34,074 nt of DNA from Desulfobacterales bacterium (GTDB lineage Bacteria > Desulfobacterota > Desulfobacteria > Desulfobacterales > JAHDSC01), in NCBI GenBank assembly GCA_016931455.1, contig JAFGES010000063.1:1-34074 (forward strand), read 5' to 3'. Made by a program: the position numbers and the translations under genes. Below, piece by piece: positions 4,264 to 33,742 of this stretch (positions are counted from its first letter, which is position 1; each line of letters opens with the position of its first letter). The notes under the pieces were generated by a model. It ran no database searches, was not told where the DNA came from, and saw only the letters and a list, made by a program, of their open reading frames with translations.

Positions 4264-4986
4264 CTAATTTCTCCCTATCATACCAAAAATAAAGACCATT
4301 CCTGAATTACCGAGTGTGAAATGAAGCAAAGGGGTTATAAAAAAAGCAATTAAACTCTGGAGCGAGTTTGTAATCAGCAATAAAATTAAAATGATCATAC
4401 CGAAGCGCTCAATTCGTAAAAATTTCGATCTTAAAGACGTCGGCAAAAACATCGCTAAAATACGACTGCCGTCCAAAGGTGGAATGGGGATCAAATTAAA
4501 AACAGCCAGAACGCAATTAATCACCGCACTGTACCCCAAGATCAGCAGCAAATCGATCATTACCGGGTAAAATATGGATACGTTCCATAAAGAGCTGAAA
4601 CGCAAAAAAACTTGCAAAAAAATTCCTGAAATAAATGCCAATGTCAAATTCGCCAGGACCCCTGCCGATGCCACCCAAATCGTACCTTTACGCGGATCTC
4701 TAAGATTGGCAAAGTTAACCGGAACCGGCTTGGCATAACCGAAAATAATGGGTGATCCTGAAAACTTGAGTATGATTGGAAGCAGAAAGGATCCAAAAAA
4801 ATCAAGATGCTTAATCGGATTCAAGGTAAGCCGGCCGGCCATCATGGCGGTGGGGTCTCCCATCCTATAGGCCACATAGCCATGCGCTACTTCATGCACG
4901 GTAACTGCAAAAAGCAAAGGAATAATGATCACAACAATTTGATTTAAATTATAAAACATATTCGCGCACAAAATTGAGTTCGTCAT
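4264..4986 (-). CDS. Site-2-protease-family zinc metalloprotease (M50)
   Basis: Up to 240 residues. A polytopic membrane protein with the zinc-binding HEVAH motif in its first membrane segment and the second family motif NLIPIPPLDGSRIL (NPxPxLDG type) in a later one. About five to six hydrophobic segments can be seen. Members of this small rhomboid-like M50 branch (YwhC/Rip-like) are intramembrane proteases, but the substrate is unknown for most. Two starts are possible: ATG at 4986, used here, overlaps the upstream gene by 38 bases; ATG at 4959 (MFYNLNQIV) overlaps by 11 and matches the usual family N-terminus. Neither has a strong Shine-Dalgarno sequence. The stop abuts trpS. Confidence 0.88.
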   Translation of the reverse strand: MTNSILCANMFYNLNQIVVIIIPLLFAVTVHEVAHGYVAYRMGDPTAMMAGRLTLNPIKHLDFFGSFLLPIILKFSGSPIIFGYAKPVPVNFANLRDPRKGTIWVASAGVLANLTLAFISGIFLQVFLRFSSLWNVSIFYPVMIDLLLILGYSAVINCVLAVFNLIPIPPLDGSRILAMFLPTSLRSKFLRIERFGMIILILLLITNSLQSLIAFFITPLLHFTLGNSGMVFIFGMIGRN

Positions 4987-17495: not shown

Positions 17496-17518
17496 ACTAA
17501 AGAAGGGTGCGTTTTATC

Positions 17519-18556
17519 ATGGAGATATCATTATCGGAAATCTCAAAAATTATTGAAGGTGAAATCAAAGGTGATCCGGAAAAAATCATTAGCGGGATTG
17601 CTCCTTTTGAGAATGCAACCCCAGACGAGATCACATTTGCCGGTAGTGCAAAATTTTTAAAAAAAATCAATGAAACTCGTGCCGGCGCCGTAATTGTACC
17701 TATCCATTTCAAGGAAACTTCTAAAAATATCGTCCAGGTCGATAATCCTCAGGTTGCTTTTGCTAAACTTTTGAACACTTTTTATCCGCCTTTTAAACCG
17801 AAATCCGGTATTAGTTCAAATGCCGATATCGGAAATAATTTTTCCTGTGGCAAGGAGGTCTATATTGCACCTTTTTGCGTGATTCAAGACAACGTCATAT
17901 TGGGTGATCGCGTCATTATTCATCCCAACGTCGTTATCGGCAACGATGTGGTCATCGGCAATGATGTGGAAATCTATCCGAATGTAACTGTGCTTGAACG
18001 CTGTCGAATCGGCTCGCATGTAAAAATTCATGCCGGCTCGGTGATCGGCAGCGATGGTTTCGGCTTTGCACATGACGGAAAAACCTATCATAAAATTGTT
18101 CACACAGGTATCGTTCAAATCGATGATGATGTTGAAATCGGTGCCGGTAATACCATCGATAGAGCGACTTTCGGTAAAACCTGGATTCAAAAAGGCGTCA
18201 AAACCGACAACCTCGTTCATATTGCCCATAATGTAACCGTCGGTGAAAATACCGTATTAGTCGCACAGGTTGGAATTTCCGGCAGCACGACCATCGGCAA
18301 AAATGCTGTATTAGCCGGTCAAGCCGGGGTTTCAGGACATTTGAAAATTGGAGATCATGTGACAATCGGCCCCCAAGCCGGAATAGCTAAATCGGTACCC
18401 AGTGGTATGGTGGTGTCCGGTTCACCTGAGATGCCCCATAAAGTATGGCTCAAAGTGCAGAATATTATTCCGAGACTGCCGGAACTTAAAAAAAAGCTTT
18501 TGGAATTGGAAAAAAAATTAAACAGTTTTGAAAAAAACAAAAAAACTGAAAAATAA
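17519..18556 (+). CDS. lpxD: UDP-3-O-(3-hydroxyacyl)glucosamine N-acyltransferase
   Basis: 345 residues from the ATG at 17519 (MEISLSEISKIIEGEI, the usual family start). A GTG at 17507 is possible but would overlap its own ribosome site. LpxD transfers a hydroxyacyl chain from acyl-ACP to the 2-amine of the UDP-sugar, the third step of lipid A synthesis, in the cytoplasm. The N-terminal uridine-binding domain (1-100) precedes a left-handed beta-helix made of hexapeptide repeats (about 100-310; IGNDVVIGNDVEIYPNV, VGENTVLVAQVGISG). The catalytic histidine lies in LVHIAHNV. The C-terminal helix is Lys/Glu-rich (KKLLELEKKLNSFEKNKK). It is part of the lpxD-fabZ-lpxA block. Confidence 0.95.
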   Translation: MEISLSEISKIIEGEIKGDPEKIISGIAPFENATPDEITFAGSAKFLKKINETRAGAVIVPIHFKETSKNIVQVDNPQVAFAKLLNTFYPPFKPKSGISSNADIGNNFSCGKEVYIAPFCVIQDNVILGDRVIIHPNVVIGNDVVIGNDVEIYPNVTVLERCRIGSHVKIHAGSVIGSDGFGFAHDGKTYHKIVHTGIVQIDDDVEIGAGNTIDRATFGKTWIQKGVKTDNLVHIAHNVTVGENTVLVAQVGISGSTTIGKNAVLAGQAGVSGHLKIGDHVTIGPQAGIAKSVPSGMVVSGSPEMPHKVWLKVQNIIPRLPELKKKLLELEKKLNSFEKNKKTEK

Positions 18557-18576: not shown

Positions 18577-19026
18577 ATGAAAAAAACTTATGACGTTCGC
18601 GAAATCATGAATTTTCTGCCACACCGTTACCCTTTCATTCTCGTTGATCGAGTTATTGAGCTTTTACCCGGTGAAAAAATAGTTGCCCTAAAAAATGTTA
18701 CCATTAATGAGCCTTTCTTTCAGGGTCATTTTCCTGGGATTCCGATTATGCCGGGCGTTCTGATCATTGAAGCCATGGGCCAGGCAGGCGGTGTTCTCTC
18801 TTTTGCTTCCCTGCCGGAAGAAAAACAAGGTTCAATAATATATTTTATGGGCATGGACAAAGTAAAATTTCGCAAACCCGTCATTCCCGGCGATCAACTT
18901 ATTTTTGAAGTAAAAGTATTAAAACAACGGGCAAAAGCGGTTAAGATGGCCGGAATTGCTACCGTTGAGGACAATCTTGTCGCTGAAGCCGAACTTATGG
19001 CTACCATTGGAGAAAAAAACGAATGA
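18577..19026 (+). CDS. fabZ: 3-hydroxyacyl-ACP dehydratase FabZ
   Basis: 149 residues, standard length. FabZ dehydrates 3-hydroxyacyl-ACP in fatty acid elongation. It competes with LpxA/LpxD for hydroxyacyl-ACP, which explains its conserved place between their genes. The hot-dog fold motifs are intact: LPHRYPFILVDRV, then catalytic H51 in GHFPGIPIMPGVLIIEAMGQ, with E65 as the second catalytic residue, and KFRKPVIPGDQLIFE. A CGGAG ribosome site lies 10 bases before the ATG. The stop overlaps the lpxA start by four bases (ATGA), so expression of the two is coupled. Confidence 0.97.
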   Translation: MKKTYDVREIMNFLPHRYPFILVDRVIELLPGEKIVALKNVTINEPFFQGHFPGIPIMPGVLIIEAMGQAGGVLSFASLPEEKQGSIIYFMGMDKVKFRKPVIPGDQLIFEVKVLKQRAKAVKMAGIATVEDNLVAEAELMATIGEKNE

Positions 19027-19793
19027 TTCATCCTACCGCAATTATCGACCCAAAAGCAGAAATAGATTCTAATGTTCAAATCGGCCCTTACTCGATCATT
19101 CAGGGCAACGTTTTTATCGGATCGGGAACCGTTATCGGATCACATGTCGTTATTGACCAATATGTTACGATAGGTAAGGACTGTCGGATATTTCAGTATG
19201 CCGCCATAGGTGCCGCACCTCAGTCTTTGAAATTTCAAGGTGAAAAAACTTATGTTAAAATCGGACGGGGCAGCATTTTAAGAGAATTTGTGACGGTTCA
19301 CAGGGGCACCCAATTCGGAGGAGGAATCACTGAAGTCGGAGAGGAAAACTTTTTAATGGCCTATACCCATATTGCACATGATTGTAAAACCGGGCGAAAC
19401 GTTGTTATGGCCAACAATGCAACCCTGGCCGGTCATATCACCATCGGCAACTATGCAACCATCGGTGGACTGGTTGCAATTCACCAGTTTGTCAGAATCG
19501 GCGATTATGCTTTTGTCGGTGGAAAAGCTGCAGTGGTCAAAGATATTCCCCCCTATGTTATTGCAGCCGGAGACAGAGCTCGATTACATGGCTTAAACAG
19601 CGTCGGACTCAAGCGCCATGGGTTTTCACAAAGCACGTTATCGTTGCTCAAAAAAACCTACCGCATTATTTTCCGAATCGGACTAACGCTCAATGAAGCG
19701 CTTGAAAGAGTGGTAGCAGAGGTCGAGCAGACGCCTGAAGTAGTTAATTTTATAAACTTTATTAAAGCATCCCAACGAGGGATGACCCGTTAA
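19023..19793 (+). CDS. lpxA: UDP-N-acetylglucosamine acyltransferase
   Basis: 256 residues. LpxA starts lipid A synthesis by adding a hydroxyacyl chain to the 3-position of UDP-GlcNAc. Hexapeptide repeats of a left-handed beta-helix fill residues 1-190. The catalytic His is H119 in YTHIAHDC (E. coli H125), with H116 beside it. The substrate-binding and C-terminal helical parts are standard (ANNATLAGHI, PPYVIAAGDRARLHGLN, GLKRHGFS). If the dehydrogenase two genes downstream is a GnnA, LpxA here may accept a 3-amino sugar nucleotide, as reported for Acidithiobacillus ferrooxidans. The sequence alone does not decide this. Confidence 0.96.
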   Translation: MIHPTAIIDPKAEIDSNVQIGPYSIIQGNVFIGSGTVIGSHVVIDQYVTIGKDCRIFQYAAIGAAPQSLKFQGEKTYVKIGRGSILREFVTVHRGTQFGGGITEVGEENFLMAYTHIAHDCKTGRNVVMANNATLAGHITIGNYATIGGLVAIHQFVRIGDYAFVGGKAAVVKDIPPYVIAAGDRARLHGLNSVGLKRHGFSQSTLSLLKKTYRIIFRIGLTLNEALERVVAEVEQTPEVVNFINFIKASQRGMTR

Positions 19794-19813
19794 TCAATTT
19801 TAATCATAAAATC

Positions 19814-20623
19814 ATGATGCGAATAGGACTCATTGCGGGAGGCGGCCAATTTCCCATAATTTTTGCCAAAGCCGCCCAGTTAAAAGGTTTTGATGTTTAT
19901 GCCGTTGCTTATCTGAATGAGGCCGATGCAATTCTTGAAAATCATGTTAAATCGATTGAATGGATGCATCTTGGACAAATCAAACGACTGATAAATTTTT
20001 TTAAGCGGCACAAAATCGAGCAAGCAGTCATGATGGGCGGAATAAAAAAAACCGGAATGTTTTCCGATGTCAAGCCGGACATGAAAGCCATTGCTCTAAT
20101 TGCCGGTCTTGTACATACTCACGATGACGGCCTATTAAGGGCATTTGCAGGCATACTTGAAAAGTCAGGCATTCAAATAAAGGCAGCAACATTTTTACTC
20201 CCCGACCTTCTGGCTCCAACAGGTTGCTGGACCAAACGCAAGCCCAATCGATCCGACAAAGCCGATATCAAGCTGGGCTGGAATATTGCAAAGGAAATCG
20301 GACGCCTTGATATCGGACAGTGTGTCGTCGTCGGGGGGGGATCCATTTTGGCTGTAGAGGCAATTGACGGTACGGATGCCACCATCTTGCGCGGCGGAAA
20401 ACTCGGCAATGGAACTGCGATTGTGGTCAAGGTATGTAAACCCAACCAGGATATGCGATTTGATATTCCTGCCGTCGGTGCACAGACCATTGAAACCATG
20501 CATGCGGCGGGTGCCAAGGCACTTGCCGTTGAAGCTGGAAAAGCCGTTGTTTTTGATCGAAAAGAAATGATAGCGCTTGCCGATCAATTCGGTATTTCAA
20601 TTGTTGCCTTAAATAACGGTTAA
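19814..20623 (+). CDS. lpxI: UDP-2,3-diacylglucosamine pyrophosphatase LpxI
   Basis: 269 residues, the DUF1009/LpxI family. LpxI hydrolyses UDP-2,3-diacylglucosamine to lipid X and UMP and replaces LpxH in Alphaproteobacteria, deltaproteobacteria and others. The N-terminal domain starts MMRIGLIAGGGQFPIIFAKA. The C-terminal catalytic domain has GQCVVVGGGSILAVEAIDGTD, then RFDIPAVG with D217 at the place of the catalytic Asp225 of the Caulobacter enzyme, and ALAVEAGKAVVFD. No LpxH-type metallophosphoesterase occurs in the window, in line with this. ATG at 19814 or 19817 is possible; no ribosome site is evident. It lies between lpxA and the oxidoreductase. Confidence 0.93.
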   Translation: MMRIGLIAGGGQFPIIFAKAAQLKGFDVYAVAYLNEADAILENHVKSIEWMHLGQIKRLINFFKRHKIEQAVMMGGIKKTGMFSDVKPDMKAIALIAGLVHTHDDGLLRAFAGILEKSGIQIKAATFLLPDLLAPTGCWTKRKPNRSDKADIKLGWNIAKEIGRLDIGQCVVVGGGSILAVEAIDGTDATILRGGKLGNGTAIVVKVCKPNQDMRFDIPAVGAQTIETMHAAGAKALAVEAGKAVVFDRKEMIALADQFGISIVALNNG

Positions 20624-20664
20624 AAAGAAGGCTTACCTTAAATCTTTAAGAATTGGAAATTTCA

Positions 20665-21621
20665 ATGCAAAAATTCCGAGTCGGTGTTGTCGGTGTAGGA
20701 TATCTCGGCAAATTTCATGCTGAAAAATATGCACGTATGGATAATGTTGAGCTTGTAGCCGTTGTCGATACCGACAAAGCACAAGCTGAGGCGATTGCCG
20801 GCAAAAACGGCACAAAAGCGTACCAAAGCTATAAAGACATTTTCGGAAAAGTGGATGCAGTTAGTATTGCCGTTCCTACGCCGCTTCATTTTAATGTCGG
20901 CAAAGATTTTTTGGAAAACGATATCGATATTCTAATCGAAAAACCAATGACAATGACCCTTGAAGAGGCGGATGAATTGATACGGATTGCAGAATCTAGA
21001 GGTCTGATTATTCAGGTCGGACATCTTGAACGTTTTAATTCAGCCGTCATTGCTCTGCAGGATATTGTCAAAAAACCAAAGTTCATTGAATCACATCGCT
21101 TGAGTACATATAAGGATCGCTGCATAGATGTCAGCGTGGTACTAGATCTCATGATCCATGATATCGATATTATATCCAACTTTGTTGAATCGGATATCAA
21201 GCATGTCCATGCTGCCGGCATACCGGTTATCACCGAACATACCGATATTGCCAATGCACGCCTTGAATTTAAAAACGGATGCGTTGCCAATGTAACCGCC
21301 AGCAGAATCTCTACCAAAAATGAGCGAAAAATCAGGCTATTTCAGAAAGATGCTTATATATCCGTCGATTTTGCCAATCATGAGATAACGGTTATCCACA
21401 AAAACGGCAACGGCTTGGAAAGCCCGATACCCGGCATGGGTATGAACCAATTATGTTTTACAAAAGGAGATGCCCTGGAAGATGAACTGAAAGCATTTGT
21501 TCGATCCGTCATTGAAAGGGAAGTACCGAAAGTTTCAGGCCCGGTAGGACGTGATGCTCTAAAGATCGCACTCAATATCATGGAACAAATCCACATGACG
21601 AACAAACAATTTATGCGTTAA
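20665..21621 (+). CDS. Gfo/Idh/MocA-family oxidoreductase, possibly GnnA-like
   Basis: 318 residues from the ATG at 20665, with GGAA 6-7 bases before it; a TTG 12 bases upstream is less likely. The N-terminal Rossmann fold binds NAD(P) through GVVGVGYLGKFHAEKYARM. The family Lys lies in EKPMTMTLEEAD. The C-terminal substrate domain has VGHLERFN and LDLMIHDIDIISNF, with the usual Asp and His. These enzymes oxidise or reduce sugar hydroxyls. Its place between lpxI and lpxB suggests a UDP-sugar of lipid A. GnnA of A. ferrooxidans and Campylobacter jejuni, which oxidises the 3-OH of UDP-GlcNAc, is of this family and lies in lpx clusters. Its partner GnnB, a PLP aminotransferase, is absent from this window, so the function stays open. 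Confidence 0.85.
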   Translation: MQKFRVGVVGVGYLGKFHAEKYARMDNVELVAVVDTDKAQAEAIAGKNGTKAYQSYKDIFGKVDAVSIAVPTPLHFNVGKDFLENDIDILIEKPMTMTLEEADELIRIAESRGLIIQVGHLERFNSAVIALQDIVKKPKFIESHRLSTYKDRCIDVSVVLDLMIHDIDIISNFVESDIKHVHAAGIPVITEHTDIANARLEFKNGCVANVTASRISTKNERKIRLFQKDAYISVDFANHEITVIHKNGNGLESPIPGMGMNQLCFTKGDALEDELKAFVRSVIEREVPKVSGPVGRDALKIALNIMEQIHMTNKQFMR

Positions 21622-21627
21622 TATCCC

Positions 21628-22764
21628 ATGCCCATAAATTCTAAAAAAAAATGTGTCATGATCATAGCCGGTGAGGCTTCCGGCGACCATCACGGAGCGA
21701 TGCTGGTTGAGGCCATGCGCAAAAAAGATCCTAATCTTCTTTTTTTCGGCATCGGGGGTCAAGCGCTTAAAAATGCCGGCGTCAAAATCTGCATTGATGC
21801 CTCAGAGCTTTCGGTTGTGGGGATAACCGAAGCATTTTCCAAGTTGCCGTACCTTTTCAAGGCTGTTTCCACAGCTAAAAGACTCTTGAAAACATTGCAT
21901 CCCGATCTTCTTATACTGATTGATTTTCCGGATTTCAACCTTCATGTTGCCGCCCGTGCAAAAAAGCTTTCAATACCTGTTTTTTATTACATCAGCCCTC
22001 AGATTTGGGCCTGGAGATCCGGTCGTGTAAAAAAAATCAAAGCTCGCGTCAATCATGTGGCGGTTATCCTGCCCTTTGAAGAGAAATTTTATCGGCAACA
22101 TAATGTTCCCGTTACCTTTGTCGGTCATCCTTTACTTGACACCTATCGCCCTACCGGAGAGACGGCATATAACCCAAGCCCTATTCCGACGGTCGGCCTT
22201 TTACCCGGTTCTCGTGATAGGGAGATTGCCGGACACCTTCCCGTCATGCTTGATGCAGCCCGAATTCTGCTTAGAAAAGGCCGAAAGATAAAATTTATCA
22301 TTTCAGTTGCAGACACCGTCAAACGAGACTCTATCGAAGCAATCTTGAAGAACTATCCGGAGGCTGCGGATTTTGAAATGATAACGGATAATGTAAACAA
22401 AGTTTTTGAACGGTCTCATCTTGTTGTCGCTTCATCCGGGACGGTTACCCTTGAAGCCGCAATTTCCGGGATTCCAATGGTTATCATTTACAAAGTGTCC
22501 CCTTTCAGTTATTGGGTCGGCAAGAAGTTAATCAAAGTTAAAGACATCGGATTGGTGAATCTTATTGCAGGCAAAAGAATTGTTCCTGAATTGTTGCAGG
22601 AGCAGGCTACGCCATTAAACATCGCCGATAGGGTTGATAAGATGCTCAACGATACGACCGGCCTTGCATATCTGCGAGACGAACTCTTTAATATAAGAAA
22701 GATATTAGGGCAAACCGGTGCTTCAGAGCGCACAGCCGATATTGCCATGCAAATGTTATCATAA
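21628..22764 (+). CDS. lpxB: Lipid-A-disaccharide synthase
   Basis: 378 residues, normal length. LpxB, a family GT19 enzyme at the inner face of the membrane, joins lipid X and UDP-2,3-diacylglucosamine into the lipid A disaccharide. Conserved stretches are all present: AGEASGDHHGAMLVEAM at 12-28, FFGIGGQALKNAG, DFPDFNLHVA, YYISPQIWAWR, FVGHPLLD, LLPGSRDREI and VASSGTVTLEAA. The start ATG lies 7 bases behind the oxidoreductase stop. A short gap leads to the acyltransferase gene. No truncation is seen. Confidence 0.97.
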   Translation: MPINSKKKCVMIIAGEASGDHHGAMLVEAMRKKDPNLLFFGIGGQALKNAGVKICIDASELSVVGITEAFSKLPYLFKAVSTAKRLLKTLHPDLLILIDFPDFNLHVAARAKKLSIPVFYYISPQIWAWRSGRVKKIKARVNHVAVILPFEEKFYRQHNVPVTFVGHPLLDTYRPTGETAYNPSPIPTVGLLPGSRDREIAGHLPVMLDAARILLRKGRKIKFIISVADTVKRDSIEAILKNYPEAADFEMITDNVNKVFERSHLVVASSGTVTLEAAISGIPMVIIYKVSPFSYWVGKKLIKVKDIGLVNLIAGKRIVPELLQEQATPLNIADRVDKMLNDTTGLAYLRDELFNIRKILGQTGASERTADIAMQMLS

Positions 22765-22771
22765 ATTACAA

Positions 22772-23446
22772 ATGCGGAACAAAAAAGACCCCATTGAAAT
22801 CAAATGGAACCTGATCGGTATCCTTGGTAAGTTATTTATTGATCTTCTGTTTTTTACAACACGAATCGAGTCTGTCGGTTTGGAAAATTTGTTACCGATT
22901 ATCCAATCCAAGAAATTTATTTTTGCATTCTGGCACTCTAGAATTTTACTGGTAAGCTATATTTATAAAAACTACAATGGTGCAACTCTTGTCAGTCAAT
23001 CCAAAGACGGCGAGATAATTGCGCAGATACTGCAAAGGCAAGGCCACCAAACCATCCGGGGATCAACCAGTAAAGGCGGGCTTCGAGCTTTGGCTTGCCT
23101 TATCAAGGAAATTAAAGGTAAACAAAAGCCGGGTGCGGTAATTCCCGACGGCCCGCGCGGGCCCAGATTCAAAGCTCAGCCCGGAGTGATCACCTTGGCC
23201 AAAAAAACCGGATATCCGATTCTGCCGGTCAGTTACAGTGCAAAAAAAATAAAAATTTTCCAAAGCTGGGATCGCTTTATCCTTCCGTACCCTTTTACGA
23301 CATGCCGCTTTGTTTATGGTCATCCGTTGTATGTTCCTCAAGCGGCGGATAAGGATACCGAAAAGCAATATCTGATCCGCCTTGAAAATGAACTTTGCCG
23401 AATCACCTGCGCCGGCGACCGATATTTTGGACATAACATAACTTGA
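22772..23446 (+). CDS. DUF374 lysophospholipid acyltransferase-family protein (LpxJ-like)
   Basis: 224 residues from the ATG at 22772; a longer frame would run into lpxB. It has an N-terminal hydrophobic helix (about 10-28) and the acyltransferase motifs of the DUF374 group: FAFWHSRILLV with the catalytic His, SQSKDGEIIA, IRGSTSKGGLRAL, VIPDGPRGP and FKAQPGVITLAKKTGYPILPVSY. DUF374 enzymes of Helicobacter and Campylobacter (LpxJ) add a secondary acyl chain to lipid A, even before Kdo is attached. No canonical LpxL or LpxM is in this cluster, so this protein may supply the late acylation here. Its place between lpxB and msbA supports this; chain and position cannot be inferred. Confidence 0.85.
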   Translation: MRNKKDPIEIKWNLIGILGKLFIDLLFFTTRIESVGLENLLPIIQSKKFIFAFWHSRILLVSYIYKNYNGATLVSQSKDGEIIAQILQRQGHQTIRGSTSKGGLRALACLIKEIKGKQKPGAVIPDGPRGPRFKAQPGVITLAKKTGYPILPVSYSAKKIKIFQSWDRFILPYPFTTCRFVYGHPLYVPQAADKDTEKQYLIRLENELCRITCAGDRYFGHNIT

Positions 23447-23450
23447 AGCT

Positions 23451-25211
23451 ATGAAAACATTACCCACACGTAAATTAAAAACCCGCTACAAGAATTTATT
23501 AATTCTAATAAAGGAAAATTGGTTCAAGCTCCTATTTGCAATGGGATGCATGCTGGTAGTGGCGGCTGCCACTTCTGCTACCGCCTTTTTGGTCAAACCG
23601 GCATTGGATGATATTTTTTTCAAAAAAGACGTTCAGATGCTTAAACTAATCCCACTCGTGATTATCGTCATTTATTTATTGCGGGGAATCGGCATGTATA
23701 CGCAGGAATATCTGATGAATTACGTCGGACAAGTGATCATCATGCGACTGAGAAATGATTTATACGACCGCATTCAGGAACTTCCGATCGCTTTTTTCCA
23801 AAAGGAAAAGACCGGTGTTTTAATGTCGCGGATTACAAACGATGTAAATATCATTAAAAGCATGGTTTCCACTACCGTAACAGGCAGCTTGAAGGACTGT
23901 TTTACGATCATCGGTCTTACAGGTGTTATTTTTTATCGGGATTGGAAAATGGCCGTGTTTGCCTTTATTGTTTTGCCGATTGCGTTTTACCCGGTCGTAG
24001 AGTTCGGCAAACGGGTTCGACGGGTCAGCACGGGTTGCCAGGAAGCCATGGCCGAATTGAGTTCTTTTCTGCACGAAACCTTCGCCGGCAACAAGATCGT
24101 AAAGGCTTTTGGAATGGAGCGCTATGAAAAAAAACGCTTCTTTGATAAAACCCTTGCTCTGTTTAAATTAGAAATGAAAGCGGTGGTCGCCAAATCGCTC
24201 CCCTCCCCTATCATGGAATTTTTAGGCGGACTAGGAATCGCGTTTGTCATATGGTATGGGGGATACAAAGTGATCTCCGGCAATTCCACTGCCGGAACAT
24301 TTTTTTCATTTATGGCGGCCGTCCTTATGTTATATGATCCCGTCAAAAAGTTGAGCAAGGTCAACAACTCCATTCAAGAAGGTCTTGCGGCCGCAAATAG
24401 AGTCTATGATATTATCGAAACCGAATCCAATATCAAAGAGCAAGACAATCCTGTACAAATTCAACCCGGCCGTCATAGAGTAACTTTCCAAAACGTTTAT
24501 TTTAAATATGCCGACAACATGGTATTAAAAAAGATCAACTTAGATGTAGAAGCAGGTGAAATTTTAGCCTTGGTTGGAATGAGCGGTGGGGGCAAAACAT
24601 CTCTTGTAAACCTGATACCGCGTTTTTATGATGTTAGTGACGGTCAAATCCTAATTGATAAAATAGATATCCGCAACGCCTCGATCCATTCGCTTCGATC
24701 TCAAGTTGCAATTGTAACTCAGGAACCGATCCTTTTCAACGATACCATTCGTAACAATATTGCATACGGTAATCAAAACGCCTCCGACAAAAAAATTGAA
24801 ATGGCTGCAAAAGCCGCCTATGCGTATGACTTTATTCAATGCTTTCCGGATAAGTTTGAAACCACCATTGGAGAACTTGGAGGCCGTCTTTCGGGCGGAG
24901 AAAAACAACGTATTTGTATTGCCCGTGCATTGTTGAAAGACGCGCCGATACTGATCCTGGACGAAGCCACGTCTTCACTGGACACGGAAGCCGAATCGTT
25001 GGTTCAGAAGGCCCTTGAAAATTTAATGAAAGGCCGCACCACGTTTGTCATTGCGCACAGGCTTTCAACCATCAGCTATGCCCATCGAATTATTGTTCTT
25101 GTAAATGGGCAAATCGTTGAAGAGGGAAAACACGACGAACTCATCGCCTGTCAGGGAGAATACTACAAGCTCTATCAAATGCAGTTCGGTGATAATCAAA
25201 TCGGTAAATAG
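23451..25211 (+). CDS. msbA: Lipid A export ABC transporter MsbA
   Basis: 586 residues, the usual size of a fused permease-ATPase half transporter. A MsbA dimer flips lipid A-core across the inner membrane. The six-helix transmembrane domain covers about 1-310. The ATPase domain (about 345-586) has Walker A GMSGGGKTS, Q-loop VAIVTQEPILFNDTI, signature LSGGEKQRICIARAL, Walker B ILILDEATSSLD and the switch His in VIAHRLSTI. The lipid A context on both sides (lpxB, DUF374, lptFG, waaA, lpxK) makes MsbA much more likely than another ABC exporter. The ATG lies 4 bases behind the acyltransferase stop. Confidence 0.93.
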   Translation: MKTLPTRKLKTRYKNLLILIKENWFKLLFAMGCMLVVAAATSATAFLVKPALDDIFFKKDVQMLKLIPLVIIVIYLLRGIGMYTQEYLMNYVGQVIIMRLRNDLYDRIQELPIAFFQKEKTGVLMSRITNDVNIIKSMVSTTVTGSLKDCFTIIGLTGVIFYRDWKMAVFAFIVLPIAFYPVVEFGKRVRRVSTGCQEAMAELSSFLHETFAGNKIVKAFGMERYEKKRFFDKTLALFKLEMKAVVAKSLPSPIMEFLGGLGIAFVIWYGGYKVISGNSTAGTFFSFMAAVLMLYDPVKKLSKVNNSIQEGLAAANRVYDIIETESNIKEQDNPVQIQPGRHRVTFQNVYFKYADNMVLKKINLDVEAGEILALVGMSGGGKTSLVNLIPRFYDVSDGQILIDKIDIRNASIHSLRSQVAIVTQEPILFNDTIRNNIAYGNQNASDKKIEMAAKAAYAYDFIQCFPDKFETTIGELGGRLSGGEKQRICIARALLKDAPILILDEATSSLDTEAESLVQKALENLMKGRTTFVIAHRLSTISYAHRIIVLVNGQIVEEGKHDELIACQGEYYKLYQMQFGDNQIGK

Positions 25212-25215
25212 CCGC

Positions 25216-26442
25216 ATGGTCATAAGAATCAACTCAATTTTAAATAGATATATATTTAGAGAAATACTTCCGCCCTTTGTCATCAACCTGGTCTTTTTAA
25301 CCTTCGTTTTTCTGATGACAAAAATTCTGGATATTACAAACTTAATCGTAAACTACAGAATCAGCATCTTTGCCGTTCTTTTAATGCTTATTTACTCGAT
25401 CCCCTATTTCCTCATATTTGTGATTCCCATGTCGGTCATGCTGGCTGTCCTGCTCACCTTGCTGCGAATGTCGAGTGACAATGAAATCATTGCCCTTAAA
25501 GCCGGGGGCATCAGCATATACGCCCTACTGCCCCCTGTTTTTTTATTCTGCCTTCTGGGATACCTGTTTACCGCTTTTTTGACAATTTACGGTGTTCCCT
25601 GGGGAAATTTATCATTGAAAGATCTGACCTATAAAATTGCCGCCTCTAATCTGAATATCGGACTGAAAGAAAGAAATTTCAATGACGACTTCAAGGACGT
25701 GATGCTTTTTGTGAATAAAATAGATTTAAAAAATAAGACGCTGATCGATGTATTTATTGAAGATCAAAGAAATGAGAAAATGGTCAGTACCGTGATAGCG
25801 CCTAAAGGACAGCTGTTTAGTGAACCTGAAAATTTCACTATTCATTTAAAACTCTATGATGGAATCATCAATCAGGTCAACCTTGAAAAAAAGTCATTCA
25901 ATTCCATTCACTTTGACACTTATGATGTCGGTTTAGATCTTAAAAAGATGGTATCGGCGGTAAAAAACAGCTCTAAAGATGAAAAGGAGATGCAACTGTC
26001 CGAACTCAGGCGATATCTAAAAAATGCTCCGCGGAAAGATGCGAACTACTATTCGGCGTTGATTGAATTTCATAAAAAATTTTCAATCCCCTTTGCCTGT
26101 TTTGCTTTAGGTTTTATAGCCGTTCCCTTAGGTATACATTACAAAACAGCCAGAAGATCATTTGGATTGGGTCTAGGTCTGATTTTTTTCTTGTTTTATT
26201 ATTTGTTACTATCGGCCGGTTATGTTTTTGGAGAAGCAGGTGTTTACCCACCGGTTATTGGAATGTGGCTACCCAATATCGTTATGGGATGCCTTGGACT
26301 GTATTTTTTTAAAAGGGCGGTAAACGAGGGTCCGGTTCAGTTGACTTTTTTTTCAAATTCACTCCAACGGCTTCGGAAACGGTTTGTAAAATTAGACGAA
26401 TTACACTCTTCGAGCGAACCAAACAATGTCCATCATTCATAA
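25216..26442 (+). CDS. lptF: LPS export permease LptF (YjgP/YjgQ family)
   Basis: 408 residues from the ATG at 25216, which lies 4 bases behind the msbA stop; an upstream in-frame start would overlap msbA by over 100 bases. LptF and LptG, with the ATPase LptB, pull LPS out of the inner membrane. The N-terminal helix region begins INSILNRYIFREILPPF, typical of the family. Three helices (about 15-125) are followed by a periplasmic jellyroll-like domain (about 130-290), then three C-terminal helices (about 300-375; FSIPFACFALGFIAVPLGI). The tail after residue 378 is basic. lptB, lptC and lptA are not in the window. The stop overlaps the lptG start by 17 bases. Confidence 0.88.
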   Translation: MVIRINSILNRYIFREILPPFVINLVFLTFVFLMTKILDITNLIVNYRISIFAVLLMLIYSIPYFLIFVIPMSVMLAVLLTLLRMSSDNEIIALKAGGISIYALLPPVFLFCLLGYLFTAFLTIYGVPWGNLSLKDLTYKIAASNLNIGLKERNFNDDFKDVMLFVNKIDLKNKTLIDVFIEDQRNEKMVSTVIAPKGQLFSEPENFTIHLKLYDGIINQVNLEKKSFNSIHFDTYDVGLDLKKMVSAVKNSSKDEKEMQLSELRRYLKNAPRKDANYYSALIEFHKKFSIPFACFALGFIAVPLGIHYKTARRSFGLGLGLIFFLFYYLLLSAGYVFGEAGVYPPVIGMWLPNIVMGCLGLYFFKRAVNEGPVQLTFFSNSLQRLRKRFVKLDELHSSSEPNNVHHS

Positions 26443-27502
26443 ATACATCATTCGGCAAATTCTAAAATACCTTGCGATCGTACTGGTAATGGTCATCTGT
26501 ATTTATATTGCCATCGACTTTTTTGAAAAAATTGATGATTTTATTGAAGCCGGTCTTCCACTTTCAAAAGCCCTTCCCTATTTCATATTCAAAATTCCAT
26601 TTATTATCGCACAAATCATCCCGGTTTGTCTACTGCTCGCAGTTCTTATCACTTTTGGTTTGATGCGCAAAAATAATGAGATCATTGCCTTGAAAAGTTG
26701 CGGCATTAGTATTTACTATCTCGTAAAACCCATTTTGTTACTTGGAATTCTTGCCGGTCTTACTCTCTTTTTGCTTTTCGAGGTCCTGGTCCCCATAACC
26801 CTGGACAAAGCAAACAGAATTTGGATCGTTGATGTAAAAAAAAAATCACTGATCACATCAAAAGAAAAAAATATCTGGCTCAAAGACAATCGATTGATCA
26901 CACATATTCAATATTACCACCCGGAAGAAAAAGCGGTCTTTGGAATTTCACTTTACTATTTTGATAAGGATTTCAAATTAATAAAAAGAATTGATGCTAA
27001 AAAAAGTATTTATACGCAAAACAAATGGTTGTTTTATGACCTTATGGAATCTAATTTGGATCCTGAAAAAAAGACATACCAAGTTACATTTTATCAGCAA
27101 AAATTTGAAAATCTTAATCTACTGCCCGAAGATCTTAAACAGGTGATTAAAAAATCGGAAGAAATGACATTTAAAGAACTGCTTGCCTATATTAAAAAGA
27201 TCGAAGCGGAAGGATATGACGCCGCCACCTACCGAACGGATTTACATGCAAAGATCGCTTTTCCCTTTGTCTGCATCATCATGTGCATTTTAGGAACCGG
27301 TTTGGCGGTTAAAGGAAAAAAAGATGAAGGGATAACGCTCAACATCGCATATGGCATTGGTATTGCTTTTGTTTATTGGATTTTTTACAGCTTTTGCATA
27401 TCGCTCGGGTATGGAGATATGCTGCCGCCGGAAATTGCGGCCTGGATTGCAAACTTTGTTTTTTTATGTTTGGGTTTCTTTACTTTACTGCATGCACAAT
27501 AA
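26426..27502 (+). CDS. lptG: LPS export permease LptG (YjgP/YjgQ family)
   Basis: 358 residues, the length of LptG. It starts MSIIHKYIIRQILKYL and has the six-helix layout of the pair: helices near 13-33, 55-75 and 98-118, a periplasmic domain at about 125-265, and helices near 275-350 (LHAKIAFPFVCIIMCILGTGLAV). The segment NNEIIALKSCGISIYYLV matches NEIIALKAGGISIYALL of the preceding gene, the coupling region that contacts LptB. The 17-base overlap with lptF argues for coupled translation and equal amounts. Intergenic repeat copy 2 follows. Confidence 0.9.
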   Translation: MSIIHKYIIRQILKYLAIVLVMVICIYIAIDFFEKIDDFIEAGLPLSKALPYFIFKIPFIIAQIIPVCLLLAVLITFGLMRKNNEIIALKSCGISIYYLVKPILLLGILAGLTLFLLFEVLVPITLDKANRIWIVDVKKKSLITSKEKNIWLKDNRLITHIQYYHPEEKAVFGISLYYFDKDFKLIKRIDAKKSIYTQNKWLFYDLMESNLDPEKKTYQVTFYQQKFENLNLLPEDLKQVIKKSEEMTFKELLAYIKKIEAEGYDAATYRTDLHAKIAFPFVCIIMCILGTGLAVKGKKDEGITLNIAYGIGIAFVYWIFYSFCISLGYGDMLPPEIAAWIANFVFLCLGFFTLLHAQ

Positions 27503-27520
27503 TTAAACCTTCTACTTTGT

Positions 27521-27558
27521 CGTCTCAATTTTGCCTTTTTACGAGTTCTTCATAAATG
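27521..27558 (+). repeat. Dispersed intergenic repeat, copy 2
   Basis: CGTCTCAATTTTGCC, then CTTTTTACGAGTTCTTCA, aligns almost base for base with the copy at 30001-30038 (a 2-base gap and few changes). It fills the lptG-waaA gap and ends at the waaA start codon. Confidence 0.5.
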
Positions 27559-28842
27559 ATTATTTTATATAATATATTAATATTTCTAGGTATCATAATT
27601 TTCTCCCCGCTGATAATTCCTCTAATTATTACCGTTGATAAACGACGGCAAACTTTCCGGCCGAGAATGGGATGGGCCTCGATTCCAAAGCCTATGGATA
27701 AAAATCAGAAAGTGATATGGCTTCATGCTCTTTCGGTGGGAGAGATGATTTCAGCTCAGCCGATAATCAAGAAGATAAAAAATCGATTCATCGATAAAAA
27801 AATTGTCTTATCCGCTTCTACACAAACCGGTTTCGAGATCGCAAATAAGCTGTTCTTAAATGATGTGGATACTATCTTTTTCTACCCCTATGACGTATTG
27901 TTTTCCGTAAAACATATTGCTCGTAAAATAGACCCGGATCTTGTCATTATTGTTGAATCCGATATCTGGCCGAATTTTCTGTTTGAAATGAAAAGAAGAA
28001 ATGTTCCGGTACTATTGGTTAATGCCCGGATTTCAAAAAAATCTTTTGACGGATATAAGCGCTTTTCATTTTTTATGAAATCAGTATTTTCTACTTTCTC
28101 AAAAATTTGTACCCAAACGCATGAAGATGCTTACCGCTTTGAAAAACTCGGCCTTCCGCAAAGCATGCTCAGTATAACCGGAAACATCAAGTTTGATCAG
28201 CAATGCGAGCCTGTTTCACCGGCAGAGATAAAAAAATTAAGACGAGCCATGCAGATTGCCCCGGAACAAAAAATATTGCTTGCCGGCAGTACCCATCCAG
28301 GCGAAGAAGCCATCATTCTGGATGCTTTTTCCATGCTCAAAAATCAAATTTCCGATCTTTTTCTCATTATTACTCCCAGAGATCCGCAACGGGCAAAATC
28401 AGTGAGCCGGATATTTACGACGGCCGGTTTTTCGGTTGCATTGATGCAAGATTTGGATAAACCGGATTCGGGCGGAAAATTAGATGCAGTTATTATCGAT
28501 CGAATCGGCGTCTTGAGGCAACTTTATGCTGTCGCGGATTTGGCTTTTGTTGGTGGTAGCCTTGTAAATTTGGGGGGTCATAATCCGCTTGAACCTGCCG
28601 CATGCTGTAAACCGGTTCTTTTTGGACCGCATATGAGCAATTTCAAACAAATTGCACAAATGCTTCTGGAATCCGAAGGCGCTGTCCGGATACACGATGC
28701 AAAGAGCCTTTATCAGACTGCAATGATGCTCTTTTCCAATCATTCGAAATCTCAGCGGATGGGAGAAAATGCCTTTGCCGTATTTCGTGCCAATCAAGGT
28801 GCGGCTGAAAAAATCTTAAATATTGCTGAAAGTTTTCTTTAA
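27556..28842 (+). CDS. waaA: 3-deoxy-D-manno-octulosonic acid (Kdo) transferase
   Basis: 428 residues, family GT30. WaaA adds Kdo from CMP-Kdo to the lipid A precursor at the inner membrane. An N-terminal membrane anchor (about 1-25) precedes RPRMGWASIP, VIWLHALSVGEMISAQPII and IVLSASTQTGFEIA. The second half has ITGNIKFDQ, LLAGSTHPGEE, LIITPRDPQRA, and VGGSLVNLGGHNPLEPAA, the conserved GT30 end motif. All expected elements are there. Whether one or two Kdo units are added cannot be told. The gene sits behind lptG and directly before lpxK, with only 2 bases between them. Confidence 0.95.
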   Translation: MIILYNILIFLGIIIFSPLIIPLIITVDKRRQTFRPRMGWASIPKPMDKNQKVIWLHALSVGEMISAQPIIKKIKNRFIDKKIVLSASTQTGFEIANKLFLNDVDTIFFYPYDVLFSVKHIARKIDPDLVIIVESDIWPNFLFEMKRRNVPVLLVNARISKKSFDGYKRFSFFMKSVFSTFSKICTQTHEDAYRFEKLGLPQSMLSITGNIKFDQQCEPVSPAEIKKLRRAMQIAPEQKILLAGSTHPGEEAIILDAFSMLKNQISDLFLIITPRDPQRAKSVSRIFTTAGFSVALMQDLDKPDSGGKLDAVIIDRIGVLRQLYAVADLAFVGGSLVNLGGHNPLEPAACCKPVLFGPHMSNFKQIAQMLLESEGAVRIHDAKSLYQTAMMLFSNHSKSQRMGENAFAVFRANQGAAEKILNIAESFL

Positions 28843-28844
28843 AA

Positions 28845-29999
28845 ATGTCTCTTTTCACACGCCTGCAAAAAAAGATTCAGGTTATTATGCACCAAGGGGA
28901 CGGCAATCGGTCTTTCGATTTTGAAACTTTTTTATATATGGTTTCAATTGTTTATGGAGGTATGGCAAAATTCAGATCAACGCTCTATAAAAACGACTTT
29001 TTTCAATCCAGGCAGCTACCTTGCAAGTTGATTTCCATCGGCAATCTGACAATAGGCGGTACCGGTAAGACCCCCATGACGATTTATGTTGCCAAGCACC
29101 TTAAGTGCCTCGGTTATAAGGTTGCGGTGATCAGCAGAGGATACGGAGGAAAGGCTGAAATTTTAGGCGGAATCGTAAGTGATGGGCAAAAAATTTACAT
29201 GCAGCCTGAAACTGCAGGCGACGAGCCTTTTATGATGGCCGCCGGTCTGCAAAACATACCGGTTATCGTTGGAAAAAACCGATTTCAAGCCGGTATGCGT
29301 GCCATTGATGAATTTAATCCGGATGTTATTGTACTCGATGACGCGTTCCAGCATTATCAACTTGCACGCGACATTAACTTGGTGCTTTTAGATGCTGCCC
29401 GTCCTTTCGGAAATACCTGTCTGCTGCCGCGAGGTACCTTAAGAGAACCTGCTGCCGCCCTTTCACGAGCAGATGCATTTATTTTAACCCGCTGCAGCTT
29501 TGAATCAAATCCCGGCAAAACATTATTATCCAAAAAATATTCTCACCTTTTTCAAGGTAAACCGATCTTCCGATCGCGTCACGCACCTTATATTTCTCGG
29601 ATTGTACCCTGCAAAACAAGCGCAAATCAAATCCAATTCGACAACTCAGTTTCATTTGATCCAAAATTTTTGAATCAAAAAAAGGCATTCGCCTTTTCCG
29701 GACTTGCTAGAAATGATGAATTTCTAAGTACGGTCAAAGATTTCGGATGCAAGGTAGAAGGCTTTTTATCATTTCCGGATCACCACCCCTATTCCGGCAG
29801 CGATATTGATCAGATTTTCGAAGCTGCCCGAAGGACAAAGGTTGATTACCTGTTGACAACTGAAAAAGATTACGTCCGAATGGATTCAAGGCTTAAATGG
29901 CCTGTCGATCTGATGGTTATCGGGGTTAAAATCGTCTTTTATGATGATAAAAATAATTTTGATAATTTTATTAAAAACAGGCTGTCGGAACTTACATAA
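28845..29999 (+). CDS. lpxK: Tetraacyldisaccharide 4'-kinase
   Basis: 384 residues. LpxK phosphorylates the 4'-position of the lipid A disaccharide at the inner membrane. The P-loop is NLTIGGTGKTPM at about 66-77. Other family segments are VAVISRGYGGKA, GDEPFMMAAGLQNIPVIVGK, the catalytic region VLDDAFQHYQLARDINLVLLD and LLPRGTLREPAAALSRADA. The C-terminal half carries AFSGLARNDEF, FPDHHPYS and LLTTEKDYVRM, all family features. The first 45 residues include a membrane-associated helix. It is the last gene of the outer-membrane cluster; hairpins follow within 5 bases of the stop. Confidence 0.95.
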   Translation: MSLFTRLQKKIQVIMHQGDGNRSFDFETFLYMVSIVYGGMAKFRSTLYKNDFFQSRQLPCKLISIGNLTIGGTGKTPMTIYVAKHLKCLGYKVAVISRGYGGKAEILGGIVSDGQKIYMQPETAGDEPFMMAAGLQNIPVIVGKNRFQAGMRAIDEFNPDVIVLDDAFQHYQLARDINLVLLDAARPFGNTCLLPRGTLREPAAALSRADAFILTRCSFESNPGKTLLSKKYSHLFQGKPIFRSRHAPYISRIVPCKTSANQIQFDNSVSFDPKFLNQKKAFAFSGLARNDEFLSTVKDFGCKVEGFLSFPDHHPYSGSDIDQIFEAARRTKVDYLLTTEKDYVRMDSRLKWPVDLMVIGVKIVFYDDKNNFDNFIKNRLSELT

Positions 30000-32435: not shown

Positions 32436-33716
32436 TTAAGCCGGAATACAAGGTATTTGTTTATCCTCTCCATGGGGTGGTTTTGCAGCAAATATGGTTA
32501 ATTTAAGCTCAGCATCATCCAGCAGAAGATACTCGGGTTTGCGTCCGGAAAGCTTCTCGCTTTCCGTGATAATAATCGGTACGCCTTCGCCGCGTTTATC
32601 CATAATAAAATTGCGCTGACTGCCGATGGCATTAACGTTCATGGGACAACGGGCCAACAGAGAGCTGAGCAATTCATTACGCGCGGATTGTCGTTCCGAA
32701 AGGCTGTCAATGGTCATTGTGTTGGGAATTGACCCAGGCGAGAAGATTTCCAACCTGTCACCAAACTGATGCAGTCTGATCTTTGATCCATAAAACGAGT
32801 AATCCCGGTGAACCACGGCATTCACGATCGCTTCAAAAACGGCATTCATTGAAAACTGAGGTGTCTCGATTCTGTTTGGCGCTTTGATGGCATATACACG
32901 CATATTCCGATCGACAAACCTGCAAGCTTCCTGAATCTGAATATCCAGAGGTCCTGTAATGTCTTTGGCATCCAGTTGATAGGCTGCATTCCGTTCGGAA
33001 CCACGATAGCAGACCGCCTGTATAAAGGCATTCGGCATAAACGACTCCGGCGCATCACCGGCCATCAAAATACCGCTTACCGTAGGGCGAAAAACATGAT
33101 CTTCATCCGTTGCAATCAGTTTCATCTTTTCCAAAAACTCCTGATCGTTGGTCGGGGAAATCACTGTTTTGAAACGCTTCCACAATTTTGGATTCAAATC
33201 ATCCATCTTAGCATTTGGAACAATCTGTTCATCGAATCGAATCAGCCGGACCTGGCTGCGTTGTTGAAAGAGGCGAGATAAGACATCCGGTCTCATCTGT
33301 CGTTTTGAACTGCCGATCCGCCGGAAATACCCACCCGGGCTTTGATGTACGAAAAGACTTCTGGGGACATCGATACGAATAATCACCTTTTCACTGCCAT
33401 TTTCCCCCATGATCGGCATCTTACGAATGATACAGTCCAACGGCGGCTCAATTAGGTCGTTGCAGATGCCCCGCAACCATGTTTCGACGATATCCAACTT
33501 GTCATGCGGTATGCCGTATATGGTCTTTGACTTGTCATCCACGCCCAGCAGGATAACACCGGTATGAGTATTAGCCATGGCAGCGAGTTCGTCCGCCATG
33601 CCGTTTCGGTGCGGACCTGTGATTTTATCCCCGCTGAATTGGACGGTTTTGAGCTCAAGGACGGAGTCTTCACCCAGTTTTATTTGCTTTATGATATCTA
33701 TTTTATTTTCAAACAT
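32436..33716 (-). CDS. AlbA_2/Schlafen-like ATP-binding protein
   Basis: 426 residues from the ATG at 33716, with GGGGAGG 6 bases before it. The N-terminal AlbA_2 (Schlafen-like) domain covers about 15-125: the core E of VLELKTVQF, ELAAMANTHTGVILLGVDD and IYGI. The C-terminal part (about 260-370) is a GHKL-type ATPase-like domain with AVFEAIVNAVVHRDYSFYGS and RLEIFSPGSIPN. The end GEGVPIIITESEKLSG is typical. Such proteins are usually annotated as putative transcriptional regulators or ATP-binding proteins, and relatives occur near defence genes. What this one does is unknown. It is convergent to the hypothetical gene, and no partner gene follows on its strand. Confidence 0.8.
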   Translation of the reverse strand: MFENKIDIIKQIKLGEDSVLELKTVQFSGDKITGPHRNGMADELAAMANTHTGVILLGVDDKSKTIYGIPHDKLDIVETWLRGICNDLIEPPLDCIIRKMPIMGENGSEKVIIRIDVPRSLFVHQSPGGYFRRIGSSKRQMRPDVLSRLFQQRSQVRLIRFDEQIVPNAKMDDLNPKLWKRFKTVISPTNDQEFLEKMKLIATDEDHVFRPTVSGILMAGDAPESFMPNAFIQAVCYRGSERNAAYQLDAKDITGPLDIQIQEACRFVDRNMRVYAIKAPNRIETPQFSMNAVFEAIVNAVVHRDYSFYGSKIRLHQFGDRLEIFSPGSIPNTMTIDSLSERQSARNELLSSLLARCPMNVNAIGSQRNFIMDKRGEGVPIIITESEKLSGRKPEYLLLDDAELKLTIFAAKPPHGEDKQIPCIPA

Positions 33717-33742
33717 AATCAACCTCCCCTTCCTCTCAGCAC

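Follow-up and report, generated by a model that had tools for sequence, protein, structure and literature searches.

A predicted UDP-N-acetylglucosamine 3-dehydrogenase gene, gnnA, in the lipid A operon of Desulfobacterales and its probable aminotransferase partner elsewhere in the genome

The stretch of DNA considered here, referred to below as the window, comprises 34,074 nt from a Desulfobacterales bacterium (assembly GCA_016931455.1, contig JAFGES010000063.1, positions 1 to 34,074). It includes a lipid A operon that contains a gene of the Gfo/Idh/MocA dehydrogenase family. Between 17507 and 22764, on the plus strand, the gene order is lpxD, fabZ, lpxA, lpxI, the Gfo/Idh/MocA gene and lpxB. 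The N-acyltransferase gene lpxD (17507-18556; PF04613) is the upstream member, followed by the hydroxyacyl-ACP (acyl carrier protein) dehydratase gene fabZ (18577-19026; TIGR01750), which overlaps lpxA by 4 nt. LpxA (19023-19793; TIGR01852, 9.8e-104), the acyl-ACP--UDP-sugar acyltransferase, is the presumed user of the product considered below. Next are lpxI, for the UDP-2,3-diacylglucosamine pyrophosphatase (19814-20623; PF06230, PF17930), and the Gfo/Idh/MocA gene, here called gnnA, which is intact and ends at 21621. Its start is either an ATG (20665) or a TTG further upstream (20653), leaving a gap of 41 or 29 nt, respectively, after lpxI; at the other end of gnnA, a gap of 6 nt separates it from lpxB, the gene for lipid A disaccharide synthase (21628-22764; PF02684, TIGR00215). 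The window includes 34 open reading frames of at least 120 aa; the 28 that were scanned gave no match to aminotransferase families and the other six are antisense to annotated genes. The initial annotation, which had placed a GnnA-like gene between lpxI and lpxB and noted the lack of an aminotransferase gene in the window, thus holds for position, identity and neighbourhood.

As judged from its sequence and its modelled structure, the window gene is GnnA, UDP-N-acetylglucosamine (UDP-GlcNAc) 3-dehydrogenase. Its product matches PF01408 and PF22725 (3.9e-33 and 2.8e-9; N-terminal Rossmann domain) and, among solved structures, 7bvj is the nearest in sequence (1.8e-60). The AlphaFold model (predicted local distance difference test score, pLDDT, 93.9) superimposes on 7bvj with a Z score of 42.0 and a root mean square deviation of 1.3 over 301 aligned residues at 35% identity, and on 7bvk with a Z score of 41.3; the next-best entry scores 35.5 and Foldseek is concordant. 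Both structures are entitled UDP-N-acetylglucosamine 3-dehydrogenase GnnA from Acidithiobacillus ferrooxidans, whereas WlbA (3q2k) scores only 33.9. The EKP and MIHD stretches, which we take to be marks of GnnA, are invariant in alignments of 12 and 28 sequences. A FastTree phylogeny with 125 rows contains a branch (local support 99%) that separates 110 rows, including the window GnnA, 7bvj and 36 gnnB-linked GnnAs, from 15 WbpB-type or other dehydrogenases, most of which are encoded next to an aminotransferase and not in an lpx operon. One protein of the latter setting, L405 of genome G160, was nevertheless placed with the GnnAs, its branch being long. Clustering with an unrelated sugar dehydrogenase family, which the initial annotation had named as grounds for abandoning its reading, was thus not seen. 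In A. ferrooxidans, gnnB is adjacent to gnnA in the operon, an arrangement absent from the window. Such adjacency is not required for GnnA identity because Mesorhizobium loti carries gnnA and gnnB apart (PMC5644692).

Orthologues of gnnA with 50-75% identity are present in 27 of 39 relatives, with lpxB as a neighbour in 24 and lpxI in 19 of these 27 loci, several of which stop at contig edges. Since both orthologues and neighbours are kept among relatives, the lpxI-gnnA-lpxB arrangement is not due to chance. In eight gnnA-negative genomes examined, lpxA and lpxI are in the same order and gnnA is missing, lpxB being the next gene in seven. A survey of named loci, limited to 80 of at least 589 matches, identified 36 in which gnnA is followed by a DegT aminotransferase gene, including four Geobacter-type loci, and 26 in which it is followed by lpxB with no aminotransferase between them. 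The latter include Legionella, a Bdellovibrionaceae metagenome-assembled genome (MAG), Gemmatimonadota, Zixibacteria and Omnitrophota, and split gnnA and gnnB are therefore common. Named MAGs closely related to the window locus (L167, L138, L159) belong to Desulfobacterales and Deltaproteobacteria.

Some gnnA loci have unusual structures. In two genomes, G007 and G032, lpxI and gnnA form one open frame of 642 and 655 aa respectively (L025:103-2031 and L031:1474-3441, both on the minus strand), joined by repeat-like linkers, which may represent a fusion or read-through of intergenic repeats. These were set aside as proof of coupling because the linkers resemble short repeats. In G096, gnnA is covered by a frame of 631 aa. 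In G161 it is in two pieces about 1 Mb apart (L410:2547-3422 and L411:6644-7216), one of them near lpxA, reflecting either a rearrangement or an assembly fault.

Formation of the 2,3-diamino sugar GlcN3N in A. ferrooxidans requires both GnnA and GnnB (PMC8036547). A search of the genome of the window for gnnB, a check proposed in the initial annotation, identified 11 DegT matches, four of them full-length. The candidate GnnB is a lone DegT/DnrJ/EryC1 family aminotransferase gene on another contig (G000:C16:9735-10862, minus strand; PF01041, 3.4e-120), called C16 below. Its product shows 44-47% identity with nine operon-linked GnnBs and shares its best PDB match, 7b0d, with one operon-linked GnnB, QdtB being next. 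Its S189-G197 stretch, SFFPSKNLG, is invariant in 13 sequences, including the lysine which we take to be that binding pyridoxal phosphate. The gene stands behind two others, which from their sequences are presumably a mannose-1-phosphate guanylyltransferase-like and a dnaE-like gene. Among 12 C16-class loci that were examined, a dnaE-like neighbour is present in 11 and a guanylyltransferase-like neighbour in seven; none of the 12 has a dehydrogenase neighbour. C16 is the sole member of its class among the four full-length matches, the others presumably being PseC-like (beside a pseB-like gene) or WecE-type enzymes.

The distribution of the two genes was compared in 146 genomes of the order Desulfobacterales, assigning to the C16 class matches with E values of 4.6e-158 or better (the next begin at 4.8e-150). 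Genomes with neither gnnA nor LpxA were treated as uninformative (G001, G003, G028 and G030 among the 39 relatives, with more in the order set). The C16 class is present in 69 of 111 gnnA-positive genomes and in none of the 24 gnnA-negative genomes with LpxA (Fisher p 2.5e-9, ignoring kinship). With the uninformative genomes included, the table becomes 69/42/1/34 (p 9.6e-11), the sole genome with the C16 class and without gnnA being G001, which yielded no LpxA. In 22 of the 42 gnnA-positive genomes without the C16 class, a lone aminotransferase falls within a 30-row WbpE-like clade. The remainder include one with a more distant member of the C16 class (G075), two scoring like the WbpE-like class (G091 and G142, by score only and outside the tree), two with aminotransferase matches in pieces (G080, G088), three with another lone aminotransferase (G079, G114, G121) and three with only weaker or paired candidates (G143, G164, G170). 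Lone aminotransferases of the two classes are thus found in 92 of 111 gnnA-positive genomes (69, G075 and 22). Within the WbpE-like clade, a dehydrogenase neighbour occurs in none of 25 gnnA-positive members (in fetched flanks, some shorter than 1 kb) compared with three of four gnnA-negative members. So a dehydrogenase gene that is unaccompanied in the lpx operon usually goes with an aminotransferase gene that is likewise unaccompanied at another site.

Named genomes with split loci were searched as well (30 loci, 29 genomes searched, two of which were operon-linked controls). An aminotransferase match of 2.8e-119 or better that does not adjoin gnnA was found in 24 of 27, including three Legionellaceae, and was lacking in G045, G060 and G065. 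Eighteen of these 24 have no dehydrogenase neighbour; the six beside a dehydrogenase may serve other pathways. In G064 the aminotransferase match lies about 1 kb from lpxA. A genome-wide orphan gnnA was rejected as the general case because lone aminotransferases track gnnA, and the genome of the window probably does encode a partner for its gene. Among the explanations offered in the initial annotation, these results favour a gnnB located elsewhere.

The partner might instead be another aminotransferase, for example a promiscuous enzyme of the surface-glycan type, acting with GnnA in the same pathway. The number of DegT matches in the genome (11) leaves room for such an enzyme, as do the 42 gnnA-positive genomes without the C16 class, 22 of which carry a lone aminotransferase of the WbpE-like type. 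We nevertheless regard this as unlikely: C16 is alone of its class among the full-length candidates, the class was encountered outside gnnA-positive genomes only in G001, and of its 12 loci mentioned above 11 have a dnaE-like neighbour and none has a dehydrogenase neighbour.

LpxA, the presumed user of the product, is also altered. Table 1 of PMC7072397 lists Gln73, Asp74, Leu75 and Lys76 in the GlcNAc pocket of Escherichia coli LpxA. The window LpxA has Ser (Ser68, codon 19224-19226) at the position of Asp74 and retains Lys (Lys70) at that of Lys76. LpxA was compared in 132 genomes, 108 with and 24 without gnnA; no LpxA was dropped, and G008 and G036 were taken from the set of relatives. The gnnA-negative group includes three genomes of family f17 (G146, G160, G171) whose GnnA-like gene, of about 43-44% identity, is not near lpxA; in G160 this gene is beside its own aminotransferase gene outside the lpx operon (L405:2444-4659) and LpxA keeps Asp74. 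Residue 74 is Ser, Ala or Thr in 103 of the 108 gnnA-positive genomes and Asp in all 24 gnnA-negative genomes, and of 255 LpxA columns it is the most informative about gnnA. On an LpxA gene tree built without column 74, a model of dependent change of residue 74 and gnnA was favoured over one of independent change with a likelihood ratio (LR) of 48.7 (p 7e-10); the same test gave values of 4.0-19.1 for seven other columns (seven of the nine ranking next after 74).

Several further features of LpxA were observed. Column 104 (E. coli numbering) is Phe in 89 of 108 gnnA-positive and 4 of 24 gnnA-negative genomes (LR 19.1). The LpxA of the Bdellovibrionaceae MAG carries Thr at position 76. Several gammaproteobacteria with gnnA and gnnB (L116, L098, L434-L437), among them an Ectothiorhodospiraceae MAG, Simiduia and three Methylococcales, have two lpxA genes, one encoding Lys76 and the other Ser or Gly, and the paired copies look as if one served each sugar nucleotide. 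Lys76 was rejected as a universal marker because Geobacter-type and several other loci keep both Asp74 and Lys76. A broken gnnA was likewise rejected as the explanation for Asp74 in G002, where gnnA has no internal stop.

Taken together, these observations make it likely that GnnA and an unlinked GnnB produce UDP-GlcNAc3N, the 3-amino derivative of UDP-GlcNAc, which an adapted LpxA N-acylates to give a 2,3-diamino lipid A with amide-linked chains. GnnA would oxidize the 3-OH of UDP-GlcNAc with NAD+ and the C16 aminotransferase, in the role of GnnB, would convert the 3-ketone into an amine. LpxA, with Ser for Asp74 in its GlcNAc pocket, would then place the first hydroxyacyl chain on the new nitrogen, and LpxC, LpxD, LpxI, LpxB and the other enzymes would act as usual to generate a lipid A whose primary chains are held by amide bonds, on a 2,3-diamino sugar backbone which might be entirely diamino or mixed. 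We speculate that a carboxylate at position 74 might keep the 3-amine protonated and unreactive and that its loss would favour N-acylation.

A number of observations weigh against this pathway. The best NCBIfam match of the window GnnA, NF040723 (archaeal UDP-GlcNAc 3-dehydrogenase), scores 221.2 bits, below the curated cut-off of 450. The C16 class lies outside the operon-linked GnnB clade in both aminotransferase trees, and the two trees disagree on where it stands with respect to these GnnBs and to WbpE: it forms a separate 100% clade near the operon-linked GnnBs in a quick tree (without the duplicate loci L002, L041 and L069-L071) and is placed elsewhere by FastTree (without rows L001, L003, L004, L090, L101, L172, L173, L200 and L201). 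As noted above, the class is missing from 42 of 111 gnnA-positive genomes. Nine gnnA-positive genomes have no aminotransferase match better than 7.4e-84, three of these having none at 1e-50, and some genomes without a good candidate, for example G085 (99%) and G082 (97%), are almost complete. For LpxA, a pair test restricted to supported branches provided only three contrasts and no significance, with none in the opposite direction. Asp74 is retained in five gnnA-positive genomes (G002, G070, G077, G108, G174), and both Asp74 and Lys76 are kept in the four Geobacter-type gnnA-gnnB loci and one Legionellaceae MAG. Many gammaproteobacteria with gnnA also retain both residues, so that the LpxA changes are informative rather than obligatory. 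Finally, no chemical or enzyme data were found for the order. The open-licence literature yielded no lipid A structure for the order, no role of LpxA Asp74 in UDP-GlcNAc3N use and no use of the two aminotransferase clades as GnnB; this absence is weak evidence because only open-licence papers were covered.

The 3-keto sugar might alternatively be used in another way, for example by reduction to the C3 epimer, to yield a different lipid A sugar. The nine genomes without a good aminotransferase candidate would fit such a use, as would a change in LpxA at position 74 and not at the Lys76 position altered in Leptospira interrogans. We consider it very improbable given that the gene is closest to GnnA and that lone aminotransferases of two classes accompany it in 92 of 111 genomes. 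Least probable of all is that the dehydrogenase serves a surface glycan and lies in the lpx operon incidentally: the order does contain dehydrogenase genes paired with aminotransferase genes at sites other than the lpx operon, which probably serve surface glycans, but the operon position is retained across many families, LpxA residue 74 follows gnnA, and the three genomes whose 43% identical GnnA-like gene lies away from lpxA (beside its own aminotransferase in G160) keep Asp74.

The route through GnnA, GnnB and LpxA is itself already known, as are gnnA and gnnB genes lying apart; what seems new is its occurrence in this host group and the change in LpxA. We lean, with less assurance than for the pathway, towards a wider proposal: that replacement of Asp74 by Ser, Ala or Thr, Lys76 being retained in those sequences that were inspected, is an undescribed tuning of LpxA for UDP-GlcNAc3N which differs from the Lys76 change in Leptospira and Legionella, and that, with gnnA and gnnB split and two lone aminotransferase clades acting as GnnB, amide-linked 2,3-diamino lipid A is usual in the order and largely predicted by one LpxA residue. 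The suggestion in the initial annotation that a conserved orphan would point to an undescribed lipid A variant is not supported, and neither is its alternative of another use of the 3-keto sugar or another lipid A sugar; its GnnA-like gene is supported and a gnnB elsewhere is favoured. The tracking of gnnA by lone aminotransferases and by the LpxA pocket change is as expected under the ordinary route.

Downstream of lpxB the operon continues on the plus strand with genes for lipid A and lipopolysaccharide export and assembly (22718-29999): DUF374, an MsbA-like ABC transporter, LptF, a second LptF/LptG permease, a WaaA-like transferase and LpxK. Elsewhere in the window, on the minus strand, 32436-33722 encodes a protein that combines a Schlafen AlbA_2 domain with a RecG C-terminal-like domain and may belong to a mobile or defence element, and 4949-7621 encodes an 890-aa protein in which DHH/DHHA1 is joined to two CBS stretches and to the head domain of a poly(A) polymerase.

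If our proposal is correct, gnnA and one LpxA residue would suffice to infer the type of lipid A backbone in a large group of environmental bacteria, and the order would provide a natural series of gains and losses for studying the choice of LpxA between an oxygen and a nitrogen acceptor. The nature of the backbone matters because the GlcN3N lipid A of Legionella gives protection from enzymatic breakdown (PMC7867332) and loss of gnnA or gnnB in Campylobacter alters Toll-like receptor 4 (TLR4) activation and peptide sensitivity (PMC8036547). More generally, an absent operon neighbour should not be taken for an absent pathway step.

WbpB/WbpE pairs, which act in the synthesis of diacetamido sugars, follow the same logic of a dehydrogenase and a 3-aminotransferase, and the second partner class in the order is WbpE-like. 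In contrast to the window gene, which does not group with them, WbpB-type dehydrogenases lie outside the GnnA clade and beside their aminotransferase. The LpxA of L. interrogans is selective for UDP-GlcNAc3N. Like the window LpxA, it departs from that of E. coli at a GlcNAc-pocket residue in the 73-76 stretch; however, it retains Asp and carries Gly at the Lys76 position (PMC7072397, Table 1), whereas the window protein keeps Lys76 and has Ser for Asp74, and so lacks the Leptospira-type change. In A. ferrooxidans the dehydrogenase is of the same clade and fold as the window GnnA, but the candidate gnnB of the window genome is unlinked and its lone aminotransferase belongs to a clade separate from the operon-linked GnnBs. 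A close parallel in gene arrangement is Legionella, whose lipid A has been chemically established as a GlcN3N disaccharide (PMC7867332): gnnA adjoins lpxB with no aminotransferase beside it and a lone aminotransferase match lies elsewhere. It differs in that the LpxA of two named species has Thr for Lys76 and keeps Asp74, that of a third, the Legionellaceae MAG, keeping both, and in that the aminotransferase is on the WbpE-like side of the tree. Together with M. loti, Legionella provides a precedent for the split gnnA and gnnB proposed here for Desulfobacterales.

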